Shown here piece after piece: positions 22,164-26,133 of a stretch of 64,000 bases of DNA (position 1 is the first letter of the stretch; the number at the start of each line of letters is the position of its first letter). A program made the position numbers and the translations under genes. A model generated the notes under the pieces. The model was given only the letters and a program-made list of their open reading frames with translations. It did no database searches and was not told where the DNA came from. The stretch is from Sistotremastrum niveocremeum HHB9708 (taxonomy: Eukaryota; Basidiomycota; Agaricomycetes; Sistotremastrales; Sistotremastraceae): NCBI GenBank assembly GCA_001630475.1, contig KV419394.1:1-64000 (forward strand). The letters are read 5' to 3'.

Positions 22164-23606
22164 TTATAAAATTTCGATTGGGAGTTCTCGAGTGCCGATA
22201 CCGTTGGCAGGACTGGTATATGCGTATGCAGCCATAGAAAGACGCGTGCGTCTGCGTTTTGAAGGAGAAGGGGACGAAGATGGAGACGAAGTCGGAGACG
22301 GAGAAGGCGAGGATGAAGCGACGACATTTTGGGTGACTGTGCTTTTATTTCCTTCGAATTCGACTTTTGTGTTGGCACGGGGTCGTTTTCGAGGCGATAC
22401 CCTGAGGGGCGTAGACGAGGATGGAGCCTGAGGCGGGAACTCTCTCTTGACTGCTTCCAATAGGTCCAGATCTGTCCTCGGAGGTTCTGGTTTAGCTCCA
22501 ACCTTCTCCACTTGATTAGGATTCGTAAGCGACTGAGATTCCTTTTTGGTAGGCCAGTCGTCGGTATCAGAATCAGGATCAGGCTTGAGGTCCATAGCCG
22601 CATCGAATTTTTCTCCTATGAGCGTTTCTTGAAGTCGTTTGTTGTACCCCGTAGAGTTCACTGTACAAGTTTCGAACACCTAAACACCCCACGACCAAAA
22701 TCAGTAATCACTCAGCTTGTACTGTATATAAATACTAGGACCGCTCACCCATTCACCACGCACGAGTGCGTCGTCTAAATCGGCTAGTTCGAGATATGGA
22801 ACGCCCCCTTGTTCGATCTTCCGCGCGAGTGTGATGGTGTTTATTGGGTGCGCAGACCAGCTCTTCAATGTCCTGATTTTCTCAAGACTGTCTTCGTCGA
22901 GTCGAGTCGAGTCGAGTGGTCAAGAACAAGATCAGATCAAACTCAGAAAGATACAACCCACCAAATAAGTTTAGTCTATCCTGACCCAGAAGAATGTGAG
23001 CAAACCCGAAGCATTAAGTCAAACTCAGTCTGACGTACTTCCATAGGAGAATCTCTCCATTCCTGCAAACTCACAGGCTCAGAAGCCACAAACTCATAAT
23101 CCCCAAAATAAATCCACTCTCCCTCTTTCACCCTCCCAAACAAAGGCGTCCTCCTCGTCCTCCTCCCCGTCCCTTCATCTTCAACCTCCGCCAACGGGAC
23201 CCGATACACAGGATGAAACAAAACCCCACATTCCCCAGGACGTCTAGGCATATGCGGATTCCAATTCGTCCTCGGACAAGCATAAAATCCTACTCCATCT
23301 CGTATCCTGGATTTTGACACTGTTACCCATGTAACTTGGACGTTGCCCCCGTATAGAGAACTTATGTGTGGACGGGAATATGTTCTGTTGAGGATGTGTG
23401 AGGGGATAGGGAGATGGAGGTTTTTGCAGGCGTTTGCTGTGTATCGACGGAGGAGGGAGGATTCGGCGAGGGAGAAAGGTTGGTCTTCCTCTTTCTTTAT
23501 TTTAGCTATAGGCTGTTGGTAGCGATGTCTTGTGAGTTCCGCGATGATGGTGTAATTGGGGCGAAGGGTTCATAGGTACCTTTGTTTCTAGCTTTTCAGC
23601 TTTCAT
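22164..23606 (-). CDS. Duplicated fungal protein, copy B (possible DUF6697 family)
   Basis: The model has four exons: 23606-23580 (MKAEKLETK), 23512 to about 23039, a middle exon ending near 22751, and 22679-22164. Core motifs NWNPHMPRRPGECGVLF, LFGRVKEGEWIYFGDYEF and ARKIEQGGVPYLELADLDD match copy A at 8447-9557, with intron positions conserved. The donor of the second intron is ambiguous: GTACGT at 23038 is stronger, but GTCAGA four bases later keeps the frame and aligns with copy A. The last exon gives a Ser/Pro-rich, basic tail (SPRKRPRANTK, SKRRRTRLS) that may be a nuclear targeting region. Domain name from memory; function unknown. Confidence 0.8.
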
Positions 23607-24060: not shown

Positions 24061-24194
24061 AAGACAGAAAGAAGAGATGTATGTATACATTTTGATTTTC
24101 AGATACAGTAGTCGTAGTAGTCCGTGAGACCTATAAAAGAAATTCGTCAGCATCAGCAGCATCAGCACGAGTATGTATGAGATGGGAGAGGGGG

Positions 24195-24276
24195 GGTGTC
24201 AGATATATAGGCAATGTTGTTTGTCCTCAGATCCGAAGATCAGAACAGGTCTGAATGTTTATCATCATATTACACC
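24195..24276 (-). ncRNA. Box C/D snoRNA, SNORD25/snR56-like, copy 1
   Basis: Read on the minus strand: a 5-bp terminal stem GGTGT/ACACC, C box ATGATGA (24268-24262), guide CAGACCTGTT directly before a D' box CTGA, and D box CTGA (24202-24199). The guide pairs with AACAGGTCTG of 18S rRNA. Counting five bases from D' points to the first G of that segment, the site methylated by yeast snR56 and human SNORD25. Human SNORD25 has the same guide-plus-D' arrangement. It sits in the intron 24350-24131. Target and names come from remembered rRNA and snoRNA sequences. Confidence 0.75.
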
Positions 24277-24435
24277 TCGTCGACATGCACGAAGCGAGTG
24301 CAGATGCGAAGGAAACGCAAGATGGGTAGAAGCAGGATGAAGAGACGAACCTATGAGATGCGAGAGACAAGAACAGGACAATAGACGAGGATCTGCAAAC
24401 GCCGTTAGCATACCGAAGAAAGAAGTGAAAAGAAA

Positions 24436-24515
24436 GGATCAGAAAATAAAAGCAATATACTTGTCCGCAGTCCCGTAGGATATTGGAACAGGTCTGAATT
24501 GGATCATCATGTCGG
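24436..24515 (-). ncRNA. Box C/D snoRNA, SNORD25/snR56-like, copy 2 (diverged)
   Basis: Same design as copy 1: C box ATGATGA (24510-24504), guide CAGACCTGTT, D box CTGA (24442-24439), and a shared GGACAA..ATTGC stretch between. The D' box is changed from CTGA to CCAA and no terminal stem is evident, so this copy may guide poorly or be a relic. It lies in the intron 24536-24393. Confidence 0.6.
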
Positions 24516-24924
24516 TAAATTCTGAAAGGGACTCACAAAATGGAGGATAGGAGATGAAAAGACACGGATACCGGAACAACCGAGGTGGTGATGAGTAGAC
24601 TAGGACAATGCAGACAATAGTGGACGAGGATGATGGGCGCGCCCGTTGCTGGGGCCCTGAATGAGGGCCTGCGAAAAATTCATTAGTACGTAGAAGATGC
24701 AAAATGAGAAGGGGAGGGAAGTTCAGATGGGGTCGAAAAAATCGGTCGACATTGCTTCTGTGGTAATCAGAGCTCCGCCAATAGGCCAATGATTTATACA
24801 TCTCGAACGGCGTACGTAAATGACGGGGAATAGAACTTACAGAGTATGATGTATGATGTAGGCGAGAGACCTGAAGGAGAAGGGCACGTTAGCAAGCTGG
24901 GGAGGAAACGATTGAAGCGAAGGA

Positions 24925-25012
24925 AGATCAGAGTCCCGAAGGACGAAGGTGTCGACAGTGTTGGTTAGAAACCAATGCTCCGTGTGAGCTGAGTATACTT
25001 ATCATCGTGCAA
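24925..25012 (-). ncRNA. Candidate box C/D snoRNA, unknown target
   Basis: In the intron 25049-24871 there is a near-consensus C box ACGATGA (25008-25002) and a D box CTGA (24931-24928). Between them lie a perfect hairpin TTGGTT-TCT-AACCAA and a GTCC-TTCG-GGAC tetraloop hairpin just before the D box. No guide could be matched to rRNA by eye. Confidence 0.4.
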
Positions 25013-25329
25013 AAGGCGAGGGGAGATAATTATTGAGCAAGAAACTCACAGGGAGACGAGGATATGGCGAAACCTGAGAAAAACATCGTTAGCATGATGG
25101 GTTACCAAAGGGAAGGGGAAGAAGAAAATCAGAATCCGAAAGAGGACAATTTATCCGCACTGTGACTGGAAGCACAAGACTCAGATAGAAAAGGCATAAA
25201 TAAAAAAGATCGAAAAATCACGACGTCAAACGATCGAAAGCAGAACTCACAGGGAAATGGAATCCTGTAGGTAAGGATCAGTTAAGGACTAACCTAAAAG
25301 AGGAAAGGGACACTTGCATGATAGAGAGA

Positions 25330-26133
25330 CTACGCCATTGGCGGTCGCGCTGTCTTGGGTGGCATCATGCGCGAAGGCATGAACCCATCCTCTCTCGAGG
25401 AATGAAACCAGCCAGGGCGCTCTTCGATGATCTCGGGAGGCTCGTCACCAAAGGGTGATCGCGAGCTCTCCTCCCTCCTCGCACTCTCCTCGACGTCCTC
25501 AACCCACACACCGACGCCTCCATTGACTTCATCGGCATTGATCAGCTGCGCTCTCGTTTGACCATGTTCAAATCGGACAGCATGGTTGATTTGTAGTCGT
25601 TCGAGAGCTGCCACGAGGTCTGCTGCGAGAGGTGTCGAATTTGGAGGGTCTTCACGAATGGGTTCCCAGCCTACTGGAGGCGAGCCGGGTGGTGAGATGA
25701 GGAAATTCTTTTCAAGAGCAGGTGGAGCGAGATGTGATGCCTCGGACGAGAGTGTATGTAGAGGCGTTGGTAATGCACGGAATACTCTCAACGTAGTATG
25801 TAGCCTGCATCAAAGAGAACGGGAGTTAGTCAGGTCGACAAAGGATGTGAGAATATTTTCTTACGTGGATTCACTCGCAATAGGAAGTTCATCGAGACTC
25901 TTTGCTTCCTCAGCAGATGAGTCTTGATAATAAACAACAATGACTCTCCCCAAGCCACTCAAAGGAGCCCAAGTATGGATAGCACCAAAAGTCTCAAATT
26001 GCGCCCTCAAAGCGTCCTGCACCTGCTCGTGAAAGAAAATAGGTGGAAGAGAAGTCAAAACAAGAGTATTAGTTGGAGGTGCCTCCGACGTCGTCGACGA
26101 TGGCGTCGAGATAATGGGATCTGGGACAGGCAT
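25330..26133 (-). CDS. Calcipressin (regulator of calcineurin, RCAN/Rcn1)
   Basis: Two exons, 26133-25865 and 25804-25330, joined by a 60-nt intron (GTAAGA..GCAG), give 247 residues. The N-terminal half resembles an RNA-recognition-motif fold typical of calcipressins (NTLVLTSLPPIFF, then GLGRVIVVYY). The second half contains the family signature KNFLISPPGSPPVGWEP, whose FLISPPxSP core docks on calcineurin, then EDPPNSTPLA. Calcipressins inhibit or tune the calcium-activated phosphatase calcineurin in the cytosol. Length fits fungal members (about 200-280). The gene is followed on the same strand by the snoRNA-bearing exon chain, possibly one transcript. Confidence 0.92.

Follow-up and report, generated by a model that had tools for sequence, protein, structure and literature searches.

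The minus strand directly behind the stop codon of a calcipressin gene is confirmed to carry a chain in which short exons alternate with long introns, and this chain is very probably a polycistronic host gene for box C/D snoRNAs, i.e. a fungal gene of the UHG/GAS5 type. A snoRNA host gene had been proposed at this place by a sequence-only reading of the DNA, and the proposal has gained support from an snR56 RNA in intron 5 that scores above the Rfam gathering score, a further snR56 in intron 4 that scores below it and an snR71-like RNA in intron 2. Of the five introns, three have support for a box C/D snoRNA, and introns 1 and 3 are candidates only. Judged by its genes and introns the DNA looks fungal, possibly from a basidiomycete. 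In the following, the window is the whole 64-kb stretch of DNA that was analysed, and all features lie on its minus strand unless stated otherwise.

The chain consists of five GT-AG introns of 144–220 nt, between which the splice-site parse leaves exons of 24, 30, 132 and 42 nt. Read along the minus strand, intron 1 (25074..25250, 177 nt) is followed by the 24-nt exon (25050..25073), intron 2 (24871..25049, 179 nt; host of the snR71-like RNA), the 30-nt exon (24841..24870), intron 3 (24669..24840, 172 nt), the 132-nt exon (24537..24668), intron 4 (24393..24536, 144 nt; host of snR56 copy 2), the 42-nt exon (24351..24392), intron 5 (24131..24350, 220 nt; host of snR56 copy 1) and a last exon, for which the parse gives the start only (24061..24130). 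Introns 1, 2 and 4 combine a GTGAGT donor with a branch-like TGCTAAC, intron 3 has GTAAGT and TACTAAT, intron 5 has GTTCGT and GCTGAC, and all five end in an AG acceptor. When strict introns, defined by a GTRAGT donor, a branch sequence and YAG, are counted in the interval 25329-24000, there are four, whereas 1000 dinucleotide shuffles of this interval had none in 908 cases and one in the other 92. The corresponding numbers for introns of the GCTAAC type are three observed versus none in 999 and one in 1 of the 1000 shuffles. Across both strands of the window, 187 of 190 overlapping tiles, which include those over the snoRNA chain locus itself, have no such intron, and the remaining three tiles have one, two and three, respectively.

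This parse agrees with the sequence-only reading, which had placed at least five introns with branch sites and splice ends behind the calcipressin stop and had described them as oversized, i.e. three to four times the local average. With the 60-nt intron of calcipressin as the sole local intron measured, and thus in a single local comparison, the introns of the chain are 2.4–3.7 times as long. Of the very short exons of 14, 24 and 30 nt that had been listed as well, the latter two are present. The 14-nt exon (25251..25264), however, appears only if a putative intron 0 (25265..25317, 53 nt) is used, which would tie calcipressin to the chain but is of the GC-AG type, with a GCAAGT donor that is weak because of its poor exon side (T at −1). 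This makes the 14-nt exon the least certain part of the chain.

At curated thresholds, an Rfam search of the whole 64-kb window returned one match only, snR56 (RF01188) at 24197..24272, with 58.8 bits versus a gathering score of 54 and an E value of 1.9e-05 for the whole window. This copy 1 has complete C, D′ and D boxes, resides inside intron 5 and falls within the stretch that had been flagged earlier from its letters. Copy 2, at 24437..24514 in intron 4, was recovered in a laxer 1.5-kb search (RF01188, E 7e-05); as its 46.8 bits remain under the gathering score of 54, it is strictly speaking ‘snR56-like’. In copy 2, CCAA replaces the D′ box, and this may therefore be a weakening copy or one that tolerates CCAA at this position. 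In introns 4 and 5, guides of 10 bp each place G1428 of yeast 18S rRNA at D′+5. For all guides, the reference was yeast rRNA, not the rRNA of the host organism: in the 18S sequence, 18 of the 18 positions that we take to be methylation sites are in register, and in the 25S sequence this is the case for 25 of 37 presumed sites, with a drift of one position after about 2285. Introns 4 and 5 have a single exact 14-mer in common, which lies over the guide, and the remainder of the two snR56 copies has diverged; a duplication of the whole intron was rejected, since blastn-short gave nothing longer than this 14-mer. Weak Rfam matches to snR61, DdR1 and TtnuCD13 overlie the same snR56 and were judged to be chance or cross-matches, as were weak matches to sR2 and Z162, both on the plus strand, and to mir-184, U54 and PhotoRC-I.

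Intron 2 contains a box C/D RNA with approximate ends at 24928..25010, defined by a box C (ATGATAA, from 25005), a D′ box that reads CGGA rather than CTGA (from 24982) and a box D (CTGA, from 24931). Its guide pairs with yeast 25S rRNA over 11 bp including one G-U and puts A2946 at D′+5 (index 2947 in the reference sequence used, which runs one ahead there). The corresponding Rfam match to snR71 (RF00479) is fragmentary, with E values of 0.42 in the 1.5-kb search and 0.05 for the intron alone, and because its 24.4 bits do not reach the gathering score of 60, we refer to this RNA as snR71-like.

These assignments coincide with the outcome of a C/D box test, in which a box C deviating at no more than one position had to be situated 45–110 nt before a CTGA lying 40–75 nt from the 3′ splice site. 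Introns 2, 4 and 5 pass, with shuffles (1000 each) passing at rates of 0.8, 1.4 and 10.3 percent, respectively; in introns 1 and 3 the test found no box C with one mismatch or fewer. C/D-box-like sequences, which had been claimed for the introns in general, are thus borne out in introns 2, 4 and 5 and not in introns 1 and 3. A CTGA ending 46–68 nt ahead of the 3′ splice site is common to all five introns (55 and 54 nt in introns 1 and 3), and by intron 12–34 percent of shuffles also have a CTGA 40–75 nt from the intron end, a range that was set after seeing the data. In intron 1, a putative C/D RNA would extend between GTGATTT (from 25221) and CTGA (25132-25129); Rfam gave no match to this intron up to an E value of 10, and no guide scored above 8.5. 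In intron 3, the putative RNA would lie between CTGATTA (from 24770) and CTGA (24726-24723), and no Rfam snoRNA was matched on the minus strand up to an E value of 10. Intron 3 can pair with yeast 25S over 13 bp (one G-U) near C2852, beside a D′-like CCGA, and over 10 bp near G1020, beside CTGA. We did not accept these as guides, since among the 6890 D-like sites of the window 11 score at least 12.5 and 188 at least 10, and since, to our knowledge, neither of the two targets is a methylation site. Introns 1 and 3 may harbour diverged or lineage-specific guides or may be empty.

Once spliced, the exons carry no more of a coding signal than shuffled sequences do, i.e. they lack coding potential as the exons of a non-coding host would, and the earlier statement that they make no coding sense holds. 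The longest frame with an ATG in the joined exons has 91 aa and another frame, which has no early ATG, stays open over 125 codons, lengths that are matched in 13 percent of 2000 shuffles. It could be argued that a small protein-coding gene, with a product of 91 aa, is made up by the exons and hosts the snoRNAs incidentally, since this frame starts from an ATG formed at the intron 0 junction, remains open across introns 1–5 and terminates in the last exon. Yet this frame shrinks to 27 aa at most if intron 0 is not spliced, it is exceeded by the 125-codon frame and its length is within the range of shuffles, which renders a coding gene highly improbable. Three of the exons share a 9-mer, ATCCTCGTC (25063-25055, 24631-24623 and 24392-24384), with one more occurrence on the minus strand of the window (from 22422) and none on the plus strand; it is possibly a shared exonic splicing element or the trace of a duplication.

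From the splice-site sequences, the Rfam match for snR56, the boxes and the guides with D′+5 spacing on yeast rRNA, we infer that the chain is transcribed, spliced and processed and that its products act in methylation. RNA polymerase II would generate a transcript from which all five introns are removed by splicing; introns 2, 4 and 5 would then be debranched and trimmed to yield the snR71-like RNA and two snR56 RNAs, and the resulting snoRNPs would guide 2′-O-methylation of A2946 in 25S and G1428 in 18S rRNA (yeast numbering). What remains, the pyrimidine-rich joined exons with no coding signal, would be a by-product or waste. We propose this route for the chain because it corresponds to established C/D snoRNA biology, for which the general processing pathway is summarized in PMC12508059 (papers are cited here by accession number).

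Host genes with a similar architecture are documented in fungi, basidiomycetes included, and work on Neurospora and basidiomycetes describes many snoRNAs as intronic (PMC2780460, PMC3596301). Speaking against a host gene, most fungal snoRNAs are reported to be independent units (PMC11028025, PMC12309372). Equally unhelpful is a Pleurotus genome, where an Rfam search reported seven snoRNAs, none of them named snR56 or snR71 (PMC5040776). A mushroom genome paper mentions snR56 once (PMC10411574). Plasmid, viral and bacterial sequences searched in addition to the window gave no related fungal sequence. The region 26300-24061, which comprises calcipressin and the chain, had no match in plasmid sequences, and no relative of calcipressin was confirmed in viral contigs (6 pattern stretches). 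A pattern combining box C with the snR56 guide was found at 3 viral and 5 bacterial loci; we consider these as chance, since at the gathering score Rfam gave no snoRNA in any of the eight, the matches being three to tRNAs, all in a single locus. An 18S pattern search yielded two loci, one of which is a eukaryotic SSU match.

An important question is how the chain relates to the gene in front of it. The calcipressin (RCAN) coding region occupies 25330..26133 and specifies a spliced product of 247 aa with a TAG stop; both reading frames that compose it match Pfam PF04847, and they are joined across a single 60-nt intron (25864-25805). Upstream of calcipressin, the same strand encodes a glycoside hydrolase family 5 cellulase (27439-26885; Pfam PF00150, E 1e-39). 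The distance from the calcipressin stop (25330) to the first good donor of the exon chain is 79 nt, and the GCAAGT donor of the putative intron 0 is reached after as little as 12 nt. In fungal genes, 79 nt is little room for an ordinary 3′ untranslated region (3′UTR) plus a separate promoter, and so narrow a gap speaks for a single transcript or for two with a large overlap.

Within the host-gene reading, it is therefore plausible, though well short of assured, that the chain is the 3′UTR of calcipressin, with one transcript comprising the coding region as well as the snoRNA-bearing introns. In this case, the exon junctions behind the stop codon may turn the mRNA into a target of decay, and the output of calcipressin would be tied to that of the snoRNAs. 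A precedent for such an arrangement is Drosophila minifly/Nop60b (mfl), where a cluster that includes four isoforms of a single C/D snoRNA is located behind the coding region, in introns of variable 3′UTRs; mfl differs in encoding a pseudouridine synthase and in that the 3′UTR location, a possibility for the fungal chain, is a reported fact (PMC1821038). The basidiomycete Cryptococcus does have introns in its untranslated regions, 3′ ones included (PMC5006051). On the other hand, intron 0, the link between the two parts, has the poorest splice sites of the set, being GC-AG with T at −1, and if it is not used the first exon is simply longer; moreover, a promoter could reside within the end of the coding region. 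Also, coding hosts of snoRNAs are often genes for ribosome synthesis (PMC12508059), such as RPL7 and NOG2 in fungi (PMC8476143), which calcipressin is not, and in the literature naming both calcipressin and snoRNAs, the titles and abstract beginnings among the matches listed contain nothing on a link between them.

An independent non-coding host gene with a start of its own at the calcipressin end would do without this link. Its start would be pyrimidine-rich (TCTCTCTATC or CCCTTTCCTCTTTTAG), resembling mammalian 5′TOP starts, and pyrimidine-rich stretches are indeed present inside 25329-25294. Mammalian hosts of the UHG class carry 5′TOP motifs (PMC7277114), and the hosts of the Neurospora clusters have short reading frames only (PMC2780460). 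However, since pyrimidines make up 72 percent of the initial 255 nt of the joined exons, a pyrimidine-rich stretch at the start is not distinctive, and no promoter was recognized in a scan that was directed at bacterial promoters and is uninformative here. As judged from the sequence, a transcript shared with calcipressin and a promoter belonging to the chain itself carry equal weight, each being a serious yet tentative option.

At its other end, the chain is followed on the same strand by a gene for a DUF6697 protein (23320-22976; Pfam PF20411, E 3.9e-19), and there is a donor-like GTAAGT at 23666-23661. Given the common strand, the chain could be the spliced 5′UTR of this gene, with a start perhaps near 23600. 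About 500 nt with several ATGs would then separate the last intron from the presumed start of the DUF6697 protein, and we regard this arrangement as improbable.

Whichever transcript it belongs to, the host chain can be compared with known snoRNA hosts. With the fungal clusters I–III, which are reported from basidiomycetes too (PMC3596301), and with six clusters described in Neurospora (PMC2780460), it shares intronic C/D snoRNAs, small internal exons and little coding potential; some fungal hosts have small internal exons or lack them altogether (PMC3596301). Its content is different, as clusters I–III are described as containing snR72-78, snR57-55-61 and snR41-70-51 and neither snR56 nor snR71 (PMC3596301). 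Neurospora has two counterparts of snR56, on the separate chromosomes III and II, and its snR71 counterpart is on chromosome VI, i.e. not together with either (PMC2780460). In Schizosaccharomyces pombe, the mamRNA locus likewise gives a precursor for multiple snoRNAs, released in part by splicing, but it combines an intronic (snR107) with a non-intronic snoRNA (snoU14), whereas the snoRNAs found in the chain are intronic (PMC12508059). The kind of host gene is therefore already known from fungi, while a composition of an snR71-like RNA plus a doubled snR56 was not encountered in the excerpts of the fungal cluster papers (PMC2780460, PMC3596301), and titles and abstract beginnings among the matches listed in a literature search mention no snR56–snR71 cluster.

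The resemblance to mammalian hosts may go further than architecture. Like UHG and GAS5, the chain appears as a non-coding host of C/D snoRNAs, and the two families that can be named in it both have members in UHG: snR56 corresponds to human U25 and snR71 to human U29 (PMC3511168; PMC2780460, Table 1), and mammalian UHG (SNHG1) hosts U22 and U25–U31 (PMC7277114). In contrast to UHG and GAS5, two families only are common, two introns of the chain have no assigned snoRNA, and snR56 is doubled. By a hand estimate, Neurospora has 33 C/D families for which a human counterpart is listed, and 3 of them (U25, U27 and U29) are represented in UHG, so that both families of the chain would fall there by chance in about 0.6 percent of cases (count from PMC2780460, Table 1). 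If a coincidence with any of the large hosts in mammals would have attracted attention, the estimate rises to about 2.5–3 percent, a figure that takes the membership of GAS5 into account. As the co-residence of snR56 and snR71 was noticed post hoc, its parallel to UHG is only suggestive. The separate chromosomal locations of the Neurospora counterparts argue against common descent of a UHG-like host, and so does the finding that intronic snoRNA locations are not stable across eukaryotes (PMC3511168).

Overall, our data add to the known snoRNA host genes a cluster that combines an snR71-like RNA with a doubled snR56. Taken to its furthest consequence, the mRNA of a calcineurin regulator would double as a precursor of snR71- and snR56-type snoRNAs by means of introns in its 3′UTR, and the co-residence of the U25 and U29 counterparts would be a remnant of a host gene that predates the split of animals and fungi; we consider this combination unlikely. 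Co-hosting of these counterparts by descent would run counter to the idea that snoRNAs, by moving continually, have erased the ancestral gene organization (PMC3511168), and if the combined proposal were true, the output of calcium signalling and the guides for rRNA methylation would be made from one transcript. The locus offers a concrete place for testing whether guide RNAs can be transcribed together with a signalling gene.
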